Origin: a virus
Length of the DNA: 64,000 nucleotides
IMG/VR virus record: IMGVR_UViG_3300010334_006851
Span: 62,001 to 126,000 of that record
Direction: 5' to 3' (one strand)
The position numbers and the translations under genes were made by a program. The notes below the pieces were generated by a model, which was given only the letters and a program-made list of their open reading frames with translations, did no database searches and was not told where the DNA came from. Of this stretch, positions 37,687-59,637 are shown piece by piece; position 1 is the first letter of the stretch, and each line of letters starts with the position of its first letter.

Positions 37687-38040
37687 ATGGACAAACCTAT
37701 ACCAATACCAAAAAGAGCGTGCACTGGTACTCAAAGGATAACAAAGAATTATTTTTTGTCAATTCTGCCAAGCAGGCCAGATCCAACATATGTTATCGAA
37801 GTATCCACTGGACAGAAGATAAGAATTGACTCCATAAACAGTGTACGCGAACCTTTAAACTTAAAGAATGGCCTATACAAGTACAAATATATGCCTATAG
37901 AAACTTATGAACCAAGAAAAATGCTTCTATCTCTAAAAGACAACGACTGGAGAATTTATAGCTTTAATCCTCTCACAAGAGAGATATGCTTTTCTATAAA
38001 AGATCGTAAACTATCCTACACAGTCCCAGATTATTTCTGA
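37687..38040 (+). CDS. Unknown 117-residue protein
   Basis: MDKPIPIPKRACTGTQRITK, basic and beta-rich, ending YTVPDYF. Convergent overlap of 10 nt with the glutamate dehydrogenase gene. The CTCTAAATACAT sequence before the ATG looks promoter-like. No family recognised. Confidence 0.6.
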   Translation: MDKPIPIPKRACTGTQRITKNYFLSILPSRPDPTYVIEVSTGQKIRIDSINSVREPLNLKNGLYKYKYMPIETYEPRKMLLSLKDNDWRIYSFNPLTREICFSIKDRKLSYTVPDYF

Positions 38041-39284
38041 AAGTATCCTTTACTTCCCAGACAAACATTTGCATCATTGATTCTTTTTAGAGCAAGAACA
38101 TAAGCAGCCGTCCTCGCAGGTACATTGTGTTTTGTGTAAAGCCCAAGGACTCTATCTGTAGCATAGTCCATCATATCCTTTAGATCGCTTTCTACTTTGT
38201 CTAAAGATCTAGATATTGCTGTTCTGTTTTGTAGCCATTCAAAATAGCTTACAACAACACCTCCACCATTTGCAAGTATGTCTGGTACGACTAGAATATT
38301 TTTGTCATTTAATATCGAGTCTCCTTCGTTCGTTGTTGGACCATTAGCCATTTCTAAAACTATTTTAGAGTTTATCTTGTTTGCTGTTTCTTTATTCAAA
38401 ACATTCTCTATAGCCGCAGGAGCTAAAACATCAACGTCAAGTTCCCAAAGTTCTTCGTTGGTTATCTTTTCTCCTTCCCCCCAATCTTGACCTTGGCTTT
38501 GGTCTAGGGACTTCTTGCAAGACATTATATTAAGTCCATGTTTGTTATAAGCACCACCATATTCATTCGTTATTGCAACCACCTTCATCCCAGATCTAAA
38601 ACACTTCTCAGCAAGCCAATATCCAACTTTACCAAATCCTTGTATTGCAATTTTTATGTCTTCTGGGTTAGATGGAACTTCTTTTATTCCACTCTTTAGT
38701 ATCTTTTCTAGAACATAGTATCCACCGTGCCCCGTGGCAGAGCTTCTGCCTTCTATTCCTCCTAAAGCAACAGGCTTTCCAGTTATGATGTCTTTTGGAT
38801 GTCCGCCCTTTATCATCTTGTATTCTGAATACATCCATCCCATTATTCTTTCGTCTGTGTAAAGATCAGGTGCAGGAATATCAGAGTCGGGGCCTATGAA
38901 GTCGGCCATTGAAGCGATGTACTCTTTACTTATTCTTTCTAGCTCTCTGTTGGAGAGTTTTGTTGCATCAACACTTATTCCTCCTTTTGCCCCTCCATAA
39001 GGAAGTTTTAAACAGGCACACTTAAAGGTCATCCAAAAAGCAAGAGCTTCACAATGGTCTTGATTTACTGATGGATGATACCTTATGCCGCCTTTTGCTG
39101 GCCCTAAAGTAGTGTCATATTGGCACCTATAAGCTTTATACATTTTTAATGATCCGTCATCGTGTCTCACCGGCAAAGAGACCGATAGGGTTTTTTGCGG
39201 ATACTGCAACCTAAGCCAGCTTTCATCGTCTATTTGTGCGAATTTATAAGCTGCTTCTAGCTGTTTTTTTGCTTCTTCTAGCAT
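38031..39284 (-). CDS. gdhA: Glutamate dehydrogenase (Glu/Leu/Phe/Val family)
   Basis: 417 residues, full family length. GPAKGGIRYH, PYGGAKGGI with catalytic K100, GPDSDIPAPD with D140, and the NAD(P) loop IQGFGKVGYW (about 214-223). It converts glutamate and 2-oxoglutarate plus ammonia. With the lysine aminotransferase at 40964-42235, which uses 2-oxoglutarate and yields glutamate, it could regenerate 2-oxoglutarate. Rare in phages as far as I know. Whether it prefers NAD or NADP cannot be told by eye. Confidence 0.95.
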   Translation of the reverse strand: MLEEAKKQLEAAYKFAQIDDESWLRLQYPQKTLSVSLPVRHDDGSLKMYKAYRCQYDTTLGPAKGGIRYHPSVNQDHCEALAFWMTFKCACLKLPYGGAKGGISVDATKLSNRELERISKEYIASMADFIGPDSDIPAPDLYTDERIMGWMYSEYKMIKGGHPKDIITGKPVALGGIEGRSSATGHGGYYVLEKILKSGIKEVPSNPEDIKIAIQGFGKVGYWLAEKCFRSGMKVVAITNEYGGAYNKHGLNIMSCKKSLDQSQGQDWGEGEKITNEELWELDVDVLAPAAIENVLNKETANKINSKIVLEMANGPTTNEGDSILNDKNILVVPDILANGGGVVVSYFEWLQNRTAISRSLDKVESDLKDMMDYATDRVLGLYTKHNVPARTAAYVLALKRINDANVCLGSKGYFQK

Positions 39285-39332
39285 AAATAAAGTACCCCTT
39301 GTTAAATTTATTAGAGTTATTTGGAGATAATA

Positions 39333-40700
39333 ATGAAAACATTCCTTGAAAGCTTGAACATAACCAAGAACACTAGACTATTAGAACAATTGATTTTAAA
39401 ATTAGAGTACTTAGGAATAGACTCTAACGAATTCTTGGATTGGTACATAGAAGAAGGCATCAATCTACAGAAAAAAGGTTTATTGATAGAAGGTTTTGAT
39501 GATTGGGCCTTAAGAGAAGGTATTTGGGATAGTTTCAAAAGTAGATGGTTTGGAGGCAAAAGTTCAGGCCAGGGTCAAGACCACACAGACTCTTCAACAG
39601 TGCAAAGAATTAAAAACGCAGGAGAGAGGGCAGGCCAATTCGTCCACAACCAAGGTAACCGCGTGGGAAAAGCACTTGGGTGGGCTAGAGACGCTTATAA
39701 TAGTTTTAACAAAGGCGTACAAGGCGATAATTCAAATAACGTAGATAAGCATACTTCTAATCCTTCTGTTGTAGAAAAAGCTAAAGAAGCTTTGTCTAAT
39801 TTATCTAAAAGAATACAATATTCTAAACAGCTTCAGTCGATTCTAGGTCGTGACAATGAAAGTATTATACAGCTTTTAAATGCACTCCAAAGCGTCAAAG
39901 AATCTTTTGATATAAGAAATAAACTCATTTTTTTGAAGTCTAACGGTTTGGATGTAGAGCAACTGGTAGAGCTGTTTATACAAGAAAAATCGAATATCAA
40001 CGAGGGAATAGAAGACTGGTTTGGAAAGGTTGGTGATTGGTTCAAGGGTCAATGGGCAAATGTAAAACATGCTTGGAACACTTGGGGCGATGGCCAAGAG
40101 GGAGAAGCAGTAAGAAGAGACAAACAAGCTGTGGATAACGCTATGAATGCACTACAAGACTTACAGCAAAATAGTAGCAACAATGAAGCCATTTCAAAAT
40201 TTAAAGATACAATAAACCAAATAATTGATAAAATAAATTCGGCAAAGCAGGCTCTAAATCAAACAGGAAGTGAGCCGCAAAACAAACCACAGTCTGCACC
40301 ACAGCCTGCACAAAACCCAGGTCCAGCTTCAGCAGCTCCTGGAGTTACTGGAGTTACTGTTTCTTCCACAGCAGGAACGCCTTCCAATCAGGACGGTTCT
40401 TCTCAAAGTGGTTGGCTTGGTAGTGGCTCAAATCAAGACGGTTCTTCTCAAAGTGGTTGGCTTGGTAACAACTCCGGAGATGTACAACAAAATTATTTAG
40501 GAAAAACTCAAATGTACGGTCGCCAACCTAAGCCGGGAGTTAAAAAGCCTGCTGGGGGATGGCCAAACCCAGGAACTGGTACTACAGATGTGGGCTCAGG
40601 AGTTCAAAATAGCTCAACAAACTATGACTCCGATGAAAACAAAAAGTTTCTAGAGTCTTTGCTACCAAAATCAAACAAGTTCTCTTGGTTTGGATATTAG
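39333..40700 (+). CDS. 455-residue Gly/Gln/Asn-rich virion-like protein
   Basis: The start is ATG 39333 with GGAG 6 nt upstream, giving MKTFLESLNITKN, a leader like the head-targeting sequences. Two modules of similar plan follow: EGFDDWALREGIWDSFKSRW (about 51-70) and EGIEDWFGKVGDWFKGQW (about 226-243), each followed by a polar low-complexity linker. The last part has two copies of DGSSQSGWLG. The shape suggests a duplicated aromatic, helical unit in a flexible virion protein. It is not a known family. Terminates at a hairpin-rich region. Confidence 0.7.
   Translation: MKTFLESLNITKNTRLLEQLILKLEYLGIDSNEFLDWYIEEGINLQKKGLLIEGFDDWALREGIWDSFKSRWFGGKSSGQGQDHTDSSTVQRIKNAGERAGQFVHNQGNRVGKALGWARDAYNSFNKGVQGDNSNNVDKHTSNPSVVEKAKEALSNLSKRIQYSKQLQSILGRDNESIIQLLNALQSVKESFDIRNKLIFLKSNGLDVEQLVELFIQEKSNINEGIEDWFGKVGDWFKGQWANVKHAWNTWGDGQEGEAVRRDKQAVDNAMNALQDLQQNSSNNEAISKFKDTINQIIDKINSAKQALNQTGSEPQNKPQSAPQPAQNPGPASAAPGVTGVTVSSTAGTPSNQDGSSQSGWLGSGSNQDGSSQSGWLGNNSGDVQQNYLGKTQMYGRQPKPGVKKPAGGWPNPGTGTTDVGSGVQNSSTNYDSDENKKFLESLLPKSNKFSWFGY
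40385..40468 (+). repeat. Tandem coding repeat, two near-identical units
   Basis: Two 37-bp nearly identical units (about 40385-40421 and 40432-40468) encode NQDGSSQSGWLG, spaced by a short linker. Confidence 0.85.
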
Positions 40701-40705
40701 TGAAT

Positions 40706-40776
40706 GCTCCCACCCCCTAAAGGGAGTGGGCTTCTAAGACATTGCTGTCTAAAGAGTTCATCTCTTATAATGAACT
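40706..40776. other. Three stacked hairpins between convergent genes
   Basis: From left: a GC-rich stem about 40709-40730 with a short loop, a 5-bp stem AGACA/TGTCT with a 4-nt loop at 40737-40750, and AGTTCAT/ATGAACT at 40755-40776. They fill the space between the ends of two converging genes. No U tract follows on either strand, so a simple intrinsic terminator is not the whole story. The GC-rich one recalls IS605-type ends, which I rejected for want of any transposase. Confidence 0.6.
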
Positions 40777-40948
40777 AAGACTTAAGCGTTTCTTTTAAGC
40801 CTAAAATTAAATAGTGCACGCAAATTGCAACAAGACATAAACAAGATAAAGCTTCTGTAACTTTTAGTGAGTTGAATAGAAGAACACTTAAGTAAGCACA
40901 AGACAATATTGGCTGTATTGCGAATAAGAATAGCAATATTTTTGACAT
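40775..40948 (-). CDS. 57-residue two-span membrane protein
   Basis: ATG 40948 to TAG at 40775: MSKILLFLFAIQPILSCAYL begins a very hydrophobic N-terminus, a second hydrophobic segment (ALSCLCLVAICVHYLILG) follows, and the tail is KETLKS. The hydrophobic pattern is far better in this frame than in the alternative overlapping frame from a TTG at 40967. Lies 16 nt after the lysine aminotransferase on the same strand. A transporter accessory or holin-like role cannot be assigned. Confidence 0.55.
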   Translation of the reverse strand: MSKILLFLFAIQPILSCAYLSVLLFNSLKVTEALSCLCLVAICVHYLILGLKETLKS

Positions 40949-40963
40949 AAAGTATGTATGTCT

Positions 40964-42235
40964 TCAAATACTGTTTTTAATATATTCTATAGCTTCATCT
41001 ACATTTTGCTTTGTAAATATAAGGTGAGGTCTTAGTCTAATAGACTTTTTACCGCAGGGTAAAACAAGCATTTTTTCTCTTAGCTTCTTTAGAACTTCAT
41101 CTCTTCTAGACGGAGTTTCTAAGTCGAAAGCAAGCATTAAACCTCTTCCCCTAACATTGTTAATCTCATCAACACCATTCAGCTTGTCTAGAAAGTAGCT
41201 GCCTACTGTGGAAGCGTTTTCTACTAGATTAAGTTCTTTAATTACACGTATTATCTTAGTAAATCTTAGCATGTCCACAACATTTCCACCCCATGTGGAG
41301 CTTATTCTGCTGGATTCATTGAACACATTATTATCTATATCTTCAATCCTGTTGGTAGAGGCAAAGCCGCAAACTTGTGTCTTTTTTCCGAATGATATCA
41401 TGTCTGGAATAATTCCATAATGCTCATAGGCCCAAGTTGCACCAGTCAGACCAACTCCTGTCTGTACTTCGTCCAAAATTAGCAGACACTCATAGTCATC
41501 TGCCAATTTTCTGATAGCTTTAAAATATTCTGTTCTAAAGTGATTGTCACCTCCTTCACCTTGAATTGTTTCCAGAACAATTGCTGCTACTAAGTTTGAT
41601 TTAAGGGCTCTCTCTGTTTGAAGAAGACTGAGCTCCTCAACCAAGGATGCTTTGCTTTCTACCACAGGAAATTCTATCTTTGGATTTTTCACTCTTGTCC
41701 AATTAAACTTTGGAAAAAGAGCAGTCTTGTTTAGTACCGTGTTCGTTAAAGAGAGGCAGTATCCACTTCTTCCATGAAAGGCTTCCTCTAAGTGCACAAC
41801 ATCCATTTTATTTACTAGAAATTCTTTTGCACTATAATTTAGCCCCAGCTTTTTAGCTTTCCAGTCAAACGCACATTTAATTGCATTTTCTACTGCTAAT
41901 GTTCCTCCGTCTATAAAGAACAGATGGTTAAAGTCAGGTGTAATTTTAGAAAACTCTTCTATAAAATTAGCATAAGTTTCTGTGTAAAAGTCACAATTAG
42001 CTATTTTGTTTAAGCAACAGAACTCTAACTCATCTGGACTTGCAAACATTAATTCCTTAAGTCTTGGATGATTCCAACCAAGAGGCATACTGGCATATTG
42101 TGATGCACAATCTAGATAAGAGGTTCCTGAAATTTTATCTACCAGATAAACGCCAGCACTCCTTTTGGGGTCGATTACAACCTTTTCTCCATCACCTACT
42201 GTGTATTTGCAAATTATTTCGTGGACTCTATCCAT
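40964..42235 (-). CDS. lat: L-lysine 6-aminotransferase (class III aminotransferase)
   Basis: 423 residues. The N-terminal GVYLVDKISGTSYLDCASQY, LGWNHPRL, ILDEVQTG (253-260) and FGKKTQVCGF (282-291, PLP lysine is one of K284/K285) follow the pattern of lysine epsilon-aminotransferases. It would move the epsilon amino group of lysine to 2-oxoglutarate, giving aminoadipate semialdehyde and glutamate. Substrate by motif similarity; ornithine or another omega-amino acid is possible. ATG overlaps the stop of 42235-42546 (TAATG). Confidence 0.85.
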   Translation of the reverse strand: MDRVHEIICKYTVGDGEKVVIDPKRSAGVYLVDKISGTSYLDCASQYASMPLGWNHPRLKELMFASPDELEFCCLNKIANCDFYTETYANFIEEFSKITPDFNHLFFIDGGTLAVENAIKCAFDWKAKKLGLNYSAKEFLVNKMDVVHLEEAFHGRSGYCLSLTNTVLNKTALFPKFNWTRVKNPKIEFPVVESKASLVEELSLLQTERALKSNLVAAIVLETIQGEGGDNHFRTEYFKAIRKLADDYECLLILDEVQTGVGLTGATWAYEHYGIIPDMISFGKKTQVCGFASTNRIEDIDNNVFNESSRISSTWGGNVVDMLRFTKIIRVIKELNLVENASTVGSYFLDKLNGVDEINNVRGRGLMLAFDLETPSRRDEVLKKLREKMLVLPCGKKSIRLRPHLIFTKQNVDEAIEYIKNSI

Positions 42236-42546: not shown

Positions 42547-42602
42547 TTATCCTCCAATCTTAATATAGTTATTTTTTTGAATGTTGAAATGGTAAATATA
42601 TC

Positions 42603-43115
42603 ATGAATAAATTCCTAGAAAGTAGTTTTAAAGACTTGTATTCAAGTACTGTAAACGCTTTTCCGAAAACAACTAGAAGGCAACACGCTATAGACCCTAT
42701 AAAAATTGTTAGGCTGGAATGGGTTCCATATGTTGGTCTCAAAACGTTGTTTATAAAAGGTTTAGCACAAAATACTGAAAACTCAAAGGAATATAACCCT
42801 ATTCTGCTCTTTAAGAAAATAAACTATTCAAGCGTAAAGGGTAATAATTATATTGAAATAAGAGACAACAATGGAAAGAACTACTTACTGGAAAAAATAT
42901 CAGAAAACGACGTGCTAGTAAGGTGCAGTTGCAAGGACTTCCTTTGGAGAGGAAATTACGCAGATCACCTTGATCACTCCCTATACGGCAGAAAAAGGAC
43001 TGAGTACGCTTCTCAAACCAACAGACCTCCGGTGAATCCCAACAATGACCCTATGGTCTGCAAGCACGTTATCAAACTTTATAAGGTGATAGAACAATCT
43101 GGAATTATAAATTAA
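42603..43115 (+). CDS. SWIM zinc-finger protein with head-type leader
   Basis: 170 residues. MNKFLESSFKDLYSS is a leader like that of the 39333 protein. A SWIM-type site is C108-x-C110 ... C153-x-H155 (VRCSCKDF and MVCKHVIKLY), with a basic, Pro/Asn-rich stretch between (RPPVNPNNDP). SWIM domains bind DNA or protein. Upstream GGTAAATATATC may be a late promoter. Virion or DNA-binding role is inferred. Confidence 0.7.
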   Translation: MNKFLESSFKDLYSSTVNAFPKTTRRQHAIDPIKIVRLEWVPYVGLKTLFIKGLAQNTENSKEYNPILLFKKINYSSVKGNNYIEIRDNNGKNYLLEKISENDVLVRCSCKDFLWRGNYADHLDHSLYGRKRTEYASQTNRPPVNPNNDPMVCKHVIKLYKVIEQSGIIN

Positions 43116-44601: not shown

Positions 44602-47037
44602 TTAAGGTACGCATGGAGCATAGAACGGTGCCCCGCAAACTCTTTCTCCGTTAGCATTTGTCATGTCGGGATGACAATTGTCTGTGCAGGATCCAAGAGA
44701 ATATTCATAATACCCTGGGCATTTCCCACCAGGAGCGTTTATACAATCGTCACCAGCCTCAGAATTATAGCACTGCCATATAAAAACTACTTCCCCATCA
44801 CACCACGGTGGGGGGGGTGGAGTTTGGGGGGGTGGAGTTTGGTAAGTTGGTGGGGGTGTAGGCACAGGTATACATGTATAGTTTTCACATGTATAACCTG
44901 AAGGGCATCCGCAGAATCCACCGCACTCATCGCTTAAACCACAGCCATTTTCTAGACACTTAGGAACACATTTGGTAGGAGTCGGATAAGGAGTCGGATA
45001 AGGAGTCGGATAAGGAGTGTAAGTAGGTGGATATGTTGGTGGCACCGTAGGTGTAGGTGTTTCACAGTAGCTACACGGCAAGCACATGCCACGGCAGTAG
45101 CACCAATCGCATGGACAACATGTAATTCCGGTGTCCGTTGTAAACGGACACAGCAGTATGATTTTACATGGATCTGGATATGTTGGCGTAGGTGGAACAG
45201 TTGGCGTTGGCTCCGGTGTAGGCGTAGGCTCGTCCGTGGGCGTAGGCGTTGGTGGTTTTGTTGGTGTAGGCGTTGGTGGTTTTGTTGGTGTAGGTTCTGG
45301 GGTTTTTGTTGGCGTGCTTGTTGGTGTGCCTGTTGGTGTGCCTGTTGGAGTTCCTGTTGGAGTCTCTGTTGGAGTCTCTGTTGGAGTCTCTGTTGGAGTC
45401 TCTGTTGGAGTCTCTGTTGGAGTCTCTGTTGGAGTCTCTGTTGGAGTTTCTGTTGGAGTCTCTGTTGGAGTTTCTGTTGGAGTTTCTGTTGGAGTTTCTG
45501 TTGGAGTTTCTGTTGGTGTTTCTGTTGGTGTTTCTGTTGGTGTTTCTGTTGGTGTTTCTGTTGGTGTTTCTGTTGGTGTTTCTGTTGGTGTTTCTGTTGG
45601 CTTTCCCGTAGTCGTTACCGTAGGCGTTGGCGTGGGCGACGGCGTTGGTGTTGGCGTTGGTGTTGATTCAACGCATGTCCCAGAGCCACTTCCGTCCTCC
45701 TGACACACGTATCCATCTGGACATCCACAGAAGGTTTCAATGCAATTATTAATGTTGCATCCTGGATCACCCCCGCAAATATAACCTGTACCACACCTTG
45801 GGGCTGATCCTTCTGGGCCTTGCAACACCGGGATGTAATCATAGCCACCGTATGGGTTAGCAGTCTTAACCATTACAAATTCATTCTGTGGGCAACCTGG
45901 GCAGGTCACTACTGGTGTTGGAGTGGGTGGTTCTGTAGGCGTTGGAGTAGGTGGAGTTGTTGTTGGAGTTGTTGTTGGTGTTTCTGTTGGTGTTTCTGTT
46001 GGTGTTTCTGTTGGTGTTTCTGTTGGTGTTTCTGTTGGTGTTTCTGTTGGAGTTTCTGTTGGAGTTTCTGTTGGTGTACTTGTTGGAGTTAGAGTGTTAG
46101 TGTTAGTTGGTGTAGGAGTAGGAGTGTTAGTTGGTGTAGGAGTAGGAGTACAACCTAAATCACAATCTTTTTTACTCTTATAACATCCATCACAGGGAGA
46201 TCCATTGTCTACACAGTTTCCATCAATACACATCCAATTACAGTCACTACACTGACACTCACATGTACCACAACCAGGCAAGCTAGGATCGTACACCCAA
46301 ACGCCAGGCAATCCACCTGGGCACGGTGATTTTTCACGACATAACTTTTGTAATTCTTCAATATTAGTACATTCTGGTGTTGTTGTTGGTGTTGTTGTTG
46401 GTGTTTCTGTTGGTGTTTCTGTTGGTGTTTCTGTTGGAGTTTCTGTTGGAGTTTCTGTTGGAGTTTCTGTTGGAGTTGTTGTTGGAGTTGTTGTTGGTGT
46501 TGTTGTTGGTGTTTCTGTTGGTGTTTCTGTTGGTGTTTCTGTTGGTGTTTCTGTTGGTGTGTATGTTGGTGTTTCTGTTGGTGTGTATGTTGGTGTTTCT
46601 GTTGGTGTGTATGTTGGTGTGTATGTTGGTGTTTCTGTAATAGTTGGAGTTGGGGTAGCTGTAGGACAAACAGGTATTGAACTATAGTATTCTTCTCCAA
46701 AATCTGAACAATACTGCGGTTTGCAGTTTTGATTTATTACGCCTATGTAAACTTTTTTGGTAACAGACTCATAGGTTCCGTCTAGATTACAGTAATAACA
46801 TGTTGTGTCTTCGTATTTTACACAATTATACGTTAACATTTCTTCGCATGTTTTTGCACATGCACAAAGGCAATCTGTTTGTCCTTTGTAACATGGGTCC
46901 TGCGTGCATTTTCCGAAAGTGCAGTTGCTAGCACAGTCATATCCTTCACAACCAGAAGTACATGGTTTAGCAAGGGAAAATACTACGTTTCCTAAGTCAT
47001 TTAAGAAACCTTTTAATCTATCCCTTATTTTTACCAT
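44602..47037 (-). CDS. Giant Thr/Pro-repeat, cysteine-rich mucin-like protein
   Basis: 811 residues: an N-terminal cysteine-rich part, then three TPTE-type Thr/Pro/Glu repeat blocks (about 132-219, 319-359 and 479-559) separated by Cys-rich modules (e.g. [24 protein letters not shown]), then a Pro/Tyr-rich C-terminal part with further Cys modules. No signal peptide, so if surface exposed it is probably virion-borne. Threonine-rich runs would be ideal O-glycosylation sites, and a CapK-like gene and a GT2 are the two genes directly upstream. Starts 20 nt inside the CapK-like gene. Fibre or adhesin is inferred. Confidence 0.85.
45306..45611 (-). repeat. 12-bp minisatellite, longest Thr/Pro/Glu block
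   Basis: About 20 consecutive 12-bp units of the form GTTTCTGTTGGT or GTTGGAGTCTCT (plus strand) at 45360-45600, with related units at the edge. Each unit encodes the four residues TPTE. All frames stay open through it. Confidence 0.95.
45960..46080 (-). repeat. 12-bp minisatellite, second block
   Basis: About ten units of the same 12-bp repeat; encodes residues about 319-359 of the mucin-like protein. Confidence 0.9.
46380..46640 (-). repeat. 12-bp minisatellite, first block
   Basis: About twenty units, some as TPTY or TPTT variants (GTTGTTGTTGGT, GTGTATGTTGGT in the DNA); encodes residues about 132-219. Confidence 0.9.
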
Positions 47038-55358: not shown

Positions 55359-56414
55359 TTAGTGGTTGTTAGAAACTCTTACAAATTTTGCACACTTGTT
55401 AAAGTCTTTTAGTTTTCCTGCTCCTATGTAGGCACCGCAACTTCTTAACCCCCCTAAAATTTCCTGTACAATACTAGAAACTGGACCCTTGTACGGTACT
55501 TTAGAAACCTTACCTTCGGATGCTCTGTATTCTTTCTTTCCTGCTCCGTGTTTTTCTTGAGCATAGTGGCTGCTCATTCCATAGAAAGTAAGAGATTTCT
55601 TCGCACTCGAAACAACTCCACCATTGTTTTCGTACTCCCAGTCTCCCTCACACTCATCTGCCCCAGCAAACATGCCCCCTATCATCACCCAGTCCGCACC
55701 AGAGCATATGGCCTTACAGATATCACCAACGGTCTTGCATCCTCCATCGCTCATTACCAATCCTAGCTTTCCATCGCCAGAACTTAATCCATGAGCTGCG
55801 TGGGAGCACTCTACGTTACATGAAAAGGTGCCATATCCTACACCAGTCATTTTTCTAGTTTCACATTGTGATCCGGGCCCTATTTGGATTTTACATATGT
55901 CTACTTTTCCATGGATAATTAGCTCTTGGCATATTTCTGGTGTTGTGACGTTTCCTGCACAAATTATACTTTCTGGAAATTCCTTTCTTACAGTAGCACA
56001 AAAATGTACAAAGCTTTCCATATATCCGTTTGGAACATCTATTACAATGTTTGTTGGCTCTCCCAATAGTTTGCTCACAGCTTTAATTTTTTCTAGATCA
56101 TCATCAGATTTGCCTATAGTTGTCCAAGCGTATGCTATGCCTGCTTCCTCTATAATCCCTGCTAGTTCTTCTGCACTGTAATACTTGTGCAACGCAGTTG
56201 CGATCTTATAAGAGGACAACTTAATAGCCATCTTTTTTGATGTAAGGGGGACCATGTTGGAACACATTAGAGGAATTCCAGTCCACACTCTTGGGCTGTA
56301 GTAAAACTTAAAATTTCTTTCTAAAGCAACTTGCTTTCTGCTTTCTAGGGTGGTTCTTTGAGGAACAATTAGAACATCATCATAATTTAATTTTACTTCT
56401 GGAGCTAAAAACAT
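55359..56414 (-). CDS. guaC: GMP reductase
   Basis: 351 residues from ATG 56414 with AGGAG 7 nt upstream; E. coli GuaC has 347. KIQIGPGSQCETR places the catalytic Cys at 184, GADWVMIGGMFAGADE binds the ribose phosphate, and FYGMSSHYAQEKHGAG plus YRASEGKVSKVPYKG is the GMP-reductase type of the IMPDH/GMPR family. It converts GMP to IMP and ammonia with NADPH. No CBS domain, which also separates it from IMPDH. Confidence 0.92.
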   Translation of the reverse strand: MFLAPEVKLNYDDVLIVPQRTTLESRKQVALERNFKFYYSPRVWTGIPLMCSNMVPLTSKKMAIKLSSYKIATALHKYYSAEELAGIIEEAGIAYAWTTIGKSDDDLEKIKAVSKLLGEPTNIVIDVPNGYMESFVHFCATVRKEFPESIICAGNVTTPEICQELIIHGKVDICKIQIGPGSQCETRKMTGVGYGTFSCNVECSHAAHGLSSGDGKLGLVMSDGGCKTVGDICKAICSGADWVMIGGMFAGADECEGDWEYENNGGVVSSAKKSLTFYGMSSHYAQEKHGAGKKEYRASEGKVSKVPYKGPVSSIVQEILGGLRSCGAYIGAGKLKDFNKCAKFVRVSNNH

Positions 56415-56515
56415 TGTAAATCTCCTAGTTTTTGAAAGAACCAAGCAAGTTAGATTTTATTGTTTTTATGATCAAAGTCAAGGATAATTTACTTTTTAAA
56501 AGGAAGAAGCTTGGG

Positions 56516-56815: not shown

Positions 56816-57370
56816 TCACATAGCACTTAGTTGCTGCCCAGACTGTCCTGCTAATGAGGGTTGATCTGTTAGTTGGGGATCTTTATTTACTGGTGCTCCC
56901 GGCATTGGGTCTTTTTCTATATCCTTTTTCTCTTGAGGCGGTTTATATTGATCCCGAACAGGCTTGACTGTGTTTGACGTGCCTCTTGAGTCCGATGCAC
57001 TTTCAATACCTTCTGTTCCTTCTGGCGAAGCAATTTTATTTATTGGGGAACCTATTTTCTTTACTAGGTTATTCAAGGCATCCGCAGACCCAGAAACAGT
57101 CTTTTCTAAATCGCCTTTTTCTTTTACGGCTTTTATGATCGCTACACCAATTTTTTGCAAATCTTTTAGATAAACTTGGTTCTCTTTTGACCAATAACTG
57201 TGTAAGACTCTCCTTATTTGATTGACTATTCTTTCTGAAAATCTGGAGAGGTCCCTTGACCCCATCCTTCCAGACTCGCCCTTTAGTTCTTCGGCCGCAG
57301 CTAGAATGTCTCCTATCTTTTGGCCAAGATACTGTTTCTGCTCGTTTATTATAAATTCTTTAAATTTCAT
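56816..57370 (-). CDS. 184-residue protein with strong capsid-targeting-like leader
   Basis: MKFKEFIINEQKQYLGQK matches the leader pattern (Ile-x-x-Glu at FIINE). Residues 20-110 are helical and basic with SGRMGSRDLSRFSERI; the tail from 110 is Pro/Gln/Asp-rich (KPPQEKKDIEKDPMPG), probably disordered. Its ATG overlaps the nrdJ stop (ATGA), so it is translated after the reductase. Virion role inferred from the leader. Confidence 0.7.
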   Translation of the reverse strand: MKFKEFIINEQKQYLGQKIGDILAAAEELKGESGRMGSRDLSRFSERIVNQIRRVLHSYWSKENQVYLKDLQKIGVAIIKAVKEKGDLEKTVSGSADALNNLVKKIGSPINKIASPEGTEGIESASDSRGTSNTVKPVRDQYKPPQEKKDIEKDPMPGAPVNKDPQLTDQPSLAGQSGQQLSAM

Positions 57371-59637
57371 GCTTCTTTCTTAAAGTCTATTGGGCAAGCT
57401 CCACCATCACATCTTACATGATCTTGATCAACGTCCTCTTTAAGGGAGGATGTTATTGTTCTTATGACGTTTTCGTACTCTGCTTTAGTGACAGCCTCTT
57501 CAGGTAGATATTCATAACTGCTACGATCTTCTTGAGGCATCACAGAACAGCACTTAATTCTACTCTGATTTTCTTTAAGAGTTTCTGAAAATTGCTTGAA
57601 ATCAACCTTGTTTGGGTTATATTTCAATGTATAGCTTATTTGGTTTCCTGTATCTTTTTCTAGGAGGTTACCTTTTTCATCTACACCTCTTATCCAATAC
57701 TTTTCCCCTAGCATAAGCCATTTATACTGATCCTCTGGGCTGGCCTCAGAGGCAGTAACTAGTCTATCTTCCATTCCAAGCTCTGTTATTACTGGTGTGG
57801 TTGGGAACCCAACTATTACCGTGTTCTGGTAGCTAGTTAGCTCTCTTACCGGATAACCAGATTTTTCGTACTTCTTGACCAAGGGATCAGATTTGCTGAA
57901 CTGAACCCATCTTAGATACCACCTCATAGAAGGAAGGTGCCAACCCTCAGTCAACCCAAACAACTTGCTTGTTGTACCAGCGGGTTTAATAGTTGTATCT
58001 GAGTGTGGAACTGTGACGCCTAATTTCTTTGAATAGGCTTTTGCCTCATCTTGGACAGCTCTTTTGAATCGTGACATTGTCATCCAAAAATCTTTAGACT
58101 TTTCTTCGTCTACAAGATCACTAAAACCAAGTTTAAAGAATTTCCATGCAAACTCATGGATGCCCGTAATACCAACTCCAATTCTGTTCGTTCTTTTTAC
58201 TTCCTTTTTATAAACACTATCCATTGTGTTTACTCTAATTAATGCCCTAGTAACAGATCTGAAGGCTTCCTCTGCTTCGTCTAGAGTCTCTGCGTGATAC
58301 GGCACAACGTCAGCGATTGTGCAGAACGCTCCCCATACTGCAATTGATATTTCGCCACACGGATTAGTTATCATGAAGTTCTGCTTTTTAACAGCCTTCT
58401 TTAACAGTCTGTTTATGTACAAATGTGTATCATCATTCAAAGAATACTTTTTGCTACCGATGAGACATTCTGTACTGATCAGTTTTTCTGTGCCGGACTT
58501 ATCTTGATTTAGTTTGTCAACGTTGATAAACCCTGGCTCTCCTGTTCCGTCTCCATACGAAGCAGAAACAGCTAGCTTATAAACACTTCTTGCGTGTTTT
58601 GCGATTTCTGAATTATATTCATCTGAACCTTTTTTGACATTCAAGAGTCGCCAGAACTCTTGGTCAACAGTGATGCTATTGTTTGATGACCATAAGAAGC
58701 CCATGGGGCTCATGTTCTTTCTTATTTCTGTTATTTCTTCTACATTTTTTCCTGTAAATTCAATTGGTCTTTTTATTGTTATAAACTCTAGGACGCTTTC
58801 ATCTTCCCAGGTCTTTGTTGACATTCGAGCTGCTCTTCTTGCTCCTCCAACAAGAACACACTCTGCAAAATAGTGGTCAATATAGATGGTTTGCATCCAT
58901 CGCGGCAGTCCCGTGTTCTTCATGGTTGCTGCTTTGTTAAACGCGTTCATCAATGGCACAGGACCGCTTGCTGGCCTTTTTTGCATACCATTTATCGGGG
59001 CACCCTTAGGCCTAATTGCTGAAAAATCTAAGATAAACAGCTTGTCTTTGTGTATCTTTTCGAAGGCGGCGTTTTCCCATATTTCTAACGCTTTGGCCCA
59101 TCCTTCTCTTGTGTCGTCTACTAAGTGCCAAAGTACATCCTTCCCACTTCCGTACTTGTGCTTTGCATCTCTTACTGACTCATGTGCCGAAAAATCAAAG
59201 TTGGGATGGTTCTCATCTAACACACAACGTAAAGCTGGTGCATTGTCCCAATCTACAAGCATCATGTCGTCATCGTAGCTTCTTCCTACGCCTGAGCCAT
59301 TCATCAATAAATAAAATAGCATGAAGCTAGTGCTTGATGTCGAGCAATTAGTAAAAACCTCCATGTTCCTCTCAGCCTGTAATTCATCACCATGCTGGAG
59401 ATGCCTACCGCTCATTAATGTCGTAGCATTTAGTAAATGCCTGTATAGAACCTCGTATTCTTTTTCTTGTTCTTCTTTGTCTTTGCAAAGCTTTGCATTT
59501 CCTAAAGCAACACGATGGGCAACATCATTCCATGTTTCCCACCTTCCATCTTCTTTTTTTCTTAGTATTGTTCTCTCGGCAACAGCTTGTCCCATACCGG
59601 CATGAAAGGTTCTAGTCTTCTTATTCTGCTTTGACAT
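57367..59637 (-). CDS. nrdJ: Class II (B12-dependent) ribonucleotide reductase
   Basis: 756 residues. TNCSTSSTSF and MNGSGVGRSY near the start, MITNPCGEI in the middle (NPCGEI loop), TIKPAGTTSKLFGLTEGWH and a C-terminal C-x5-C shuttle pair (RCDGGACPID) are signatures of the single-chain adenosylcobalamin reductase. It makes dNTPs from NTPs without oxygen or a second subunit but depends on host cobalamin. Same-strand neighbours are gp46 upstream and the 56816 gene downstream. Confidence 0.95.
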   Translation of the reverse strand: MSKQNKKTRTFHAGMGQAVAERTILRKKEDGRWETWNDVAHRVALGNAKLCKDKEEQEKEYEVLYRHLLNATTLMSGRHLQHGDELQAERNMEVFTNCSTSSTSFMLFYLLMNGSGVGRSYDDDMMLVDWDNAPALRCVLDENHPNFDFSAHESVRDAKHKYGSGKDVLWHLVDDTREGWAKALEIWENAAFEKIHKDKLFILDFSAIRPKGAPINGMQKRPASGPVPLMNAFNKAATMKNTGLPRWMQTIYIDHYFAECVLVGGARRAARMSTKTWEDESVLEFITIKRPIEFTGKNVEEITEIRKNMSPMGFLWSSNNSITVDQEFWRLLNVKKGSDEYNSEIAKHARSVYKLAVSASYGDGTGEPGFINVDKLNQDKSGTEKLISTECLIGSKKYSLNDDTHLYINRLLKKAVKKQNFMITNPCGEISIAVWGAFCTIADVVPYHAETLDEAEEAFRSVTRALIRVNTMDSVYKKEVKRTNRIGVGITGIHEFAWKFFKLGFSDLVDEEKSKDFWMTMSRFKRAVQDEAKAYSKKLGVTVPHSDTTIKPAGTTSKLFGLTEGWHLPSMRWYLRWVQFSKSDPLVKKYEKSGYPVRELTSYQNTVIVGFPTTPVITELGMEDRLVTASEASPEDQYKWLMLGEKYWIRGVDEKGNLLEKDTGNQISYTLKYNPNKVDFKQFSETLKENQSRIKCCSVMPQEDRSSYEYLPEEAVTKAEYENVIRTITSSLKEDVDQDHVRCDGGACPIDFKKEA

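Follow-up and report, generated by a model that had tools for sequence, protein, structure and literature searches.

The question raised by this locus was whether two metabolic genes in viral DNA, one for a lysine 6-aminotransferase-like enzyme (LAT) and the other for a glutamate dehydrogenase (GDH), belong to the phage and act together, and if so on which substrate and to what end. The stretch analysed (the window, 64,000 nucleotides) corresponds to G000:C1:62001-126000 of an IMG/VR virus record of 126,562 bases. Among the metabolic genes of phages, those for photosynthesis and for nucleotide and sulfur metabolism are the most familiar.

Organization of the locus

The features of the locus are listed in Table 1. 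An earlier note on the same DNA had placed LAT and GDH in one region; both are indeed on the minus strand, and that description is refined here in that they are separated by a gap of 1.7 kb with a 459-aa ORF of the opposite strand in between. Read along the minus strand, the order is the small ORF, LAT, the opposite-strand ORF and GDH, the last with its own AAGGGG site. The stop codon of the small ORF and the start codon of the co-directional LAT share one base at 42235 (TAATG). Around the locus, neither promoters and terminators nor late promoters of the T4 type were more frequent than by chance. The AF2 model of the 103-aa small ORF (pLDDT 82) gave no fold match in the PDB or among viral structures.

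Table 1. Features of the LAT/GDH locus and of the ALDH gene on the same contig (window positions unless otherwise indicated)
Feature	Position	Strand	Basis or remark
GDH, glutamate dehydrogenase, 417 aa, intact	38031..39284	-	ORF, Pfam and structure matches
RBS-like AAGGGG 5' of the GDH start	39295..39300	-	sequence
Variable ORF between LAT and GDH, 459 aa, fast-diverging	39321..40700	+	positional homologues in close relatives
LAT, lysine 6-aminotransferase-like class III PLP aminotransferase, 423 aa, intact	40964..42235	-	ORF, profile and structure matches
Small ORF, conserved phage protein, 103 aa	42235..42546	-	overlaps LAT; recurs across phage relatives
GGAGG ribosome-binding site of the small ORF	42551-42555	-	sequence
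Divergent flanking ORF, SWIM-like CxC...CxH (by eye)	42603..43115	+	syntenic marker in phages with or without LAT/GDH
ALDH, aldehyde dehydrogenase, 492 aa, intact-looking, outside the window	G000:C1:18829-20307	-	same contig

Assignment of LAT and GDH

Both genes had been described as full length with intact active-site motifs, and this was confirmed by the complete ORFs of Table 1 and by the presence of the catalytic residues. The assignments proposed at the same time, lysine 6-aminotransferase-like and glutamate dehydrogenase, are supported by the profile and structure matches.

The window LAT matched Pfam Aminotran_3 (E=3e-86), and its top NCBIfam model was TIGR03251 (L-lysine 6-transaminase) with 491.4 bits, the runner-up model reaching 227. 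This score lies below the curated cut-off of TIGR03251 (520.8 bits); the LATs of LR756511 (510.6 bits) and L014 (507.0 bits) also fall just short of it, and the window enzyme is therefore called LAT-family. The closest solved structures were those of M. tuberculosis LAT (2cin/2jjf, E=9e-106). Equivalents of R156, E222, D255, K284/K285, T314 and R402 are kept in an alignment of 48 LATs from phages and 80 from cells, except for a gap at R402 in a single phage sequence. The PLP and substrate residues of the M. tuberculosis enzyme (R170, E243, the PLP lysine, T330 and R422) are all matched in the window protein. Ser312 of the window LAT aligns with M. tuberculosis N328; the position is Ser in the window clade and Asn in 42 of the 48 phage and 79 of the 80 cellular LATs. 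The 2jjf sequence departs from 2cin at N328, which indicates that this residue has already been studied by mutation. As far as the sequence can tell, lysine is the most likely substrate of the window LAT.

For the window GDH, the ELFV N domain (E=3e-54; PF02812, 182.6 bits with a cut-off of 25.3) and the C domain (E=1e-60; PF00208, 205.5 bits with a cut-off of 23.4) were both above the gathering score, and the closest solved structures were 2tmg and 1gtm (E about 1e-104). The motifs KGG, GGxKGG, PAPD and SYFEW are intact in the phage alignment, and the catalytic Lys and Asp are present. Since the score for the archaeal GdhA equivalog NF040817 (425.2 bits) is under the curated cut-off of 750, the protein is filed just as an ELFV-family GDH.

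Aldehyde dehydrogenase and its partners

The earlier note had also hinted at an aminoadipate-type metabolite, and this appears better founded with an aldehyde dehydrogenase (ALDH) gene on the same contig, ~83 kb away from LAT. The catalytic N149, E248 and C282 are present in this ALDH, and its C-terminal tail resembles those of the ALDH7-type enzymes adjoining cellular LATs (an ALDH was found near 28 of the 80 cellular LATs). Its score for the piperideine-6-carboxylate dehydrogenase model NF050084 (245.3 bits) is far under the cut-off of 730, and NF050084 is outscored by several other ALDH models. The gene is flanked by an IF-3 gene and, by eye, by GroES-like and DnaJ-like genes, in a neighbourhood that is much alike in G008, L291 and L341.

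Among the 19 records of the first-round set, ALDH was found in G000, G008, LR756511 and G014, and the first three of these carry LAT as well; in the second-round set (49 records) it was found in 15 LAT contigs and in zero LAT-free contigs. ALDH was not found in any of the 10 searched contigs with the small ORF and without LAT, nor in some long contigs with both LAT and GDH (G007, 532 kb; G009, 343 kb).

In 15 marine LAT contigs the genes form an operon of the order (VOC)-ALDH-arginine-dihydrolase-like-LAT (e.g. L054:5275-12740), without GDH. Some marine operons add genes for a saccharopine-dehydrogenase-fold protein, an ornithine-cyclodeaminase-family protein or a class I aldolase; the VOC protein is glyoxalase-like. 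Of the 80 viral ALDH loci, LAT is present in 17 and a saccharopine-dehydrogenase-fold gene in 53, 5 loci being counted in both groups, so that at least one of the two partners is present in 65/80. Nine of the remaining 15 end near ALDH, and five are large phages with the IF-3/DnaJ-type locus. ALDH together with the saccharopine-dehydrogenase-fold gene, often with VOC and without LAT, was seen in about 48 viral contigs.

The best solved match of the saccharopine-dehydrogenase-fold protein was 3abi, which is L-lysine 6-dehydrogenase (PMC10413350). Caution is called for in that the phage proteins matched no NCBIfam lysine-6-dehydrogenase model and that carboxyspermidine dehydrogenase and homospermidine synthase share the fold (PMC10413350). 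LAT and lysine 6-dehydrogenase, two unrelated enzymes, would arrive at one and the same product; no other finding points as strongly to aminoadipate semialdehyde as what the ALDH acts on, and to lysine as the substrate. With such a pathway, the phage-specific ALDH clade, without a named function, would gain a likely role. No GDH was found in any of the 80 ALDH loci, which span up to 13.5 kb on fragmentary contigs. That these loci, mostly of the 2-oxoglutarate-independent dehydrogenase form, are without GDH fits a GDH that recycles the 2-oxoglutarate consumed by LAT; it is suggestive only, since the marine LAT operons are without GDH as well.

Proposed pathway and substrate

The locus is probably a phage auxiliary cassette for the catabolism of a basic amino acid, with lysine as the most likely substrate, as judged from the sequences. 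From lysine, LAT would transfer the epsilon-amino group to 2-oxoglutarate, so that glutamate and 2-aminoadipate-6-semialdehyde are formed, and the latter would cyclise to piperideine-6-carboxylate. GDH would oxidatively deaminate the glutamate to 2-oxoglutarate with release of ammonium and NAD(P)H, the reaction of glutamate and NAD(P)+ to these products being established enzymology. The semialdehyde would be oxidised with NAD(P)+ by ALDH to 2-aminoadipate, yielding NAD(P)H as a second reduced cofactor. In sum, host lysine would be converted during infection to ammonium, reducing power and aminoadipate, and the phage might profit from the nitrogen, from the reducing power, from having lysine removed or from the product as such. 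Conversion of lysine and 2-oxoglutarate to aminoadipate semialdehyde and glutamate is the described reaction of LAT (PMC4726150), and LAT followed by piperideine-6-carboxylate dehydrogenase is a known bacterial route to aminoadipate (PMC9854754). Weighing against the proposed pathway are the sub-cut-off score and Ser312 of the window LAT, the low piperideine-6-carboxylate dehydrogenase score of the ALDH, its distance from LAT and its absence from some long contigs with LAT and GDH, and LR756511, which has LAT and ALDH but lacks GDH. On a wider proposal, for which the balance is about even, large phages would have evolved a modular oxidation of basic amino acids with a swappable first enzyme (LAT or lysine-6-dehydrogenase-like), one phage-specific ALDH clade and, in one branch, GDH for the recycling of 2-oxoglutarate, by which host lysine or arginine would be burned for nitrogen and reducing power.

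The best-placed alternative, though an unlikely one, is that LAT acts mainly on ornithine derived from arginine, with glutamate semialdehyde oxidised to glutamate by ALDH and the glutamate converted to 2-oxoglutarate by GDH. In 15-16 marine contigs ALDH and LAT are separated by the arginine-dihydrolase-like gene, whose product has Sll1336 as its best solved match (E=1e-57; NCBIfam Arg_dihydro, 225 bits), and an ornithine-cyclodeaminase-family gene lies near some of the marine operons. This marine gene, together with the use of ornithine by a fungal LAT (PMC9854754), keeps ornithine among the possible substrates. However, identity between the fungal and the bacterial LAT is just 26% (PMC9854754), the window LAT scored 158 bits for the ornithine aminotransferase model against 491 for the LAT model, and the majority of ALDH loci have a lysine-6-dehydrogenase-like neighbour instead; in the window contig, neither the arginine-dihydrolase-like gene nor the VOC partner was found.

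Linkage of LAT and GDH in phage contigs

That a transaminase and a GDH would work as a coupled pair, as had been suggested together with a search of other phage genomes, is supported by 16 viral contigs, the window included and the largest of 532 kb, that share the order small ORF-LAT-variable gene-GDH. LAT lies within 5 kb of GDH in 16 of the 26 viral contigs carrying this GDH, with order and orientation constant; among the other 10, 3 stop too near upstream for LAT to be judged. In the nearest independent contig (3300007214_001769) the order is identical, and LAT and GDH are 91% and 96% identical to those of the window, respectively. No small ORF and no GDH were found in the fetched flanks of the 80 cellular LAT loci.

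It is doubtful, and rather improbable, that the two genes are independent cargo of an insertion hotspot, with GDH, for example, assimilating ammonium and LAT making piperideine-6-carboxylate for pipecolate or another use. Such a reading would account for about 12 contigs in which both genes are missing from the syntenic slot, for LAT without GDH in the marine phages and in LR756511 (small ORF, LAT and ALDH), and for GDH without LAT in L018 (which keeps the small ORF), L251, L255, L256, L258 and L259. Against it stands the fixed order and orientation of the 16 linked contigs, despite the free divergence of the sequence separating LAT and GDH. The small ORF occurs without LAT in about 12 contigs outside the set of 16, so that it is best taken as a phage gene with LAT placed behind it, and a role as a LAT subunit is unsupported. 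In most of the inspected LAT-free contigs the SWIM-like ORF adjoins the small ORF, as in the window, along with a LAGLIDADG-like gene. Since these neighbours persist without LAT, this phage neighbourhood seems to be ancestral, and LAT and GDH to have been gained in it (or lost from it).

Selection on the cassette was estimated from the window and its nearest relative, and dN/dS values of 0.048, 0.015 and 0.056 were obtained for LAT, GDH and the small ORF, respectively; the remaining pairs gave 0.03-0.13 where computable. The cassette genes are under strong purifying selection and have thus been maintained by it.

Several departures from the intact arrangement were recorded. G105, a second assembly of the G000 phage (100% identical over the stretch compared), stops near 69 kb of G000; its lack of LAT and GDH has no other cause, and it is hence neutral. 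In contig 3300032462_000002 the LAT ORF spans residues 252-423 only. LAT is shortened to the C-terminal 177 aa in L010:6674-7207 and lies in two overlapping frames in L065:7962-8994, by gene decay or assembly error. The LAT ORF of L019:6686-8398 has a 168-residue N-terminal extension, by eye a phage endonuclease-type domain, which is possibly an upstream in-frame ORF, so that the fusion is possibly not real.

Phage residence and phylogeny

A terminase gene is found on one contig with LAT and/or GDH in eight large IMG/VR relatives (G006, G007, G008, G009, G011, G014, G022 and G046), and LR756511 and the marine contig G054 carry a terminase alongside LAT and ALDH. The large relatives include G007 (532 kb), G008 (381 kb), G009 (343 kb) and LR756511 (595 kb). 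The window contig itself has a T4-like replication set (UvsX-, gp32-, DnaB-, SbcCD- and UvsW-type genes). By residence on phage contigs with hallmark genes, LAT and GDH are phage auxiliary metabolic genes, and the phage origin assumed at the outset is upheld by these contigs and by the 16 carrying the pair. With the pair recurring in other large phage contigs and ALDH present in some, the genes look like a phage-maintained module, not stray host DNA.

In the tree with 48 phage LATs, 44 fall on one side of a branch (support 99) separating the cellular LATs, and four (L080, L082, L083 and L085) fall on the cellular side. The 17 phage GDHs form one clade (support 98) and are at most 46% identical to the GDHs of the LAT-bearing genomes searched; the phage ALDHs likewise form one clade (support 100).

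It is very improbable that the enzyme modifies an amino sugar of a surface glycan or a DNA base in place of a free amino acid. Upstream, at about 30-37 kb, there are glycosyltransferase genes, a sulfotransferase gene and a UDP-galactopyranose mutase gene, but the LAT residues are conserved, the conserved partners are amino-acid enzymes, and sugar aminotransferases belong to a different family, DegT/DnrJ/EryC1. Host contamination or an assembly chimera, to which the cell-like character of both metabolic enzymes could point, is excluded by the terminase-bearing relatives, the independent contig of the same order and the phage-only clades of the LAT and GDH trees, together with the gene order shared across many metagenomes and the replication genes of the window contig.

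Comparison with known systems

The bacterial route of LAT and Pcd (lat/pcd of cephamycin producers, Flavobacterium lutescens; Rv3290c of M. tuberculosis) shares with the phage cassette the LAT-family sequence, the active-site residues, the ALDH partner and the expected chemistry. In contrast, the phage LAT is in a separate clade and under the curated cut-off, the phage ALDH is far under the Pcd model, GDH is added beside LAT, and no beta-lactam context was seen around the phage genes. The N-terminal arginine-dihydrolase domain of cyanobacterial ArgZ/AgrE (arginine dihydrolase/ornithine cyclodeaminase) has its homologue in the marine phage LAT operons, where it is a single-domain protein; this homologue was not found in the window contig. 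Nor was the saccharopine-dehydrogenase-fold gene found there, whose best solved match near the ALDH of many marine phages is L-lysine 6-dehydrogenase of P. horikoshii (PH1688).

The earlier note knew of no phage reported with this pair. PMC searches agree to the extent that no description of a phage LAT/GDH pair was found in the full texts, with partial coverage, so that the novelty is provisional; LAT/GDH-type enzymes are not mentioned in the main text of the huge-phage survey. Lysine degradation is nevertheless a known category of auxiliary metabolic genes, reported for large marine phages of the Bay of Bengal (PMC10732071). Host-like genes of amino-acid metabolism in large phages are common to both studies; a category is given there, and a defined cassette with clades, linkage and selection is given here. 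If the conserved amino-acid-burning module is real, some large phages would actively mobilise host lysine nitrogen, and aminoadipate or piperideine-6-carboxylate is predicted to appear in infection.

Other genes of the phage and its relatives

Outside the window, a cluster of a PrkA (YeaG-type) kinase, DUF444 (YeaH-like) and SpoVR was recognised by Pfam in L004:10497-15652 (G000:C1 about 50.5-55.7 kb); PrkA and SpoVR also come up in the RsoM2USA jumbo phage paper (PMC8504454). In L025:2801-4905 (G000:C1 about 21.3-23.4 kb) the IF-3 gene adjoins a gene whose product, a thiamine-diphosphate enzyme, is similar to indolepyruvate/phenylpyruvate decarboxylase but scored 262.6 bits where the cut-off is 554.5. 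Within the window, 44602-47037 encodes a Cys-rich protein of 811 aa in which the repeats, of TPTETPTE type, are very long, with long spurious ORFs on the opposite strand. The protein encoded at 55359-56444 is GMP reductase-like, its score of 384.5 bits lying just below the cut-off of 397, and that encoded at 57367-59637 resembles adenosylcobalamin-dependent ribonucleoside-triphosphate reductase.
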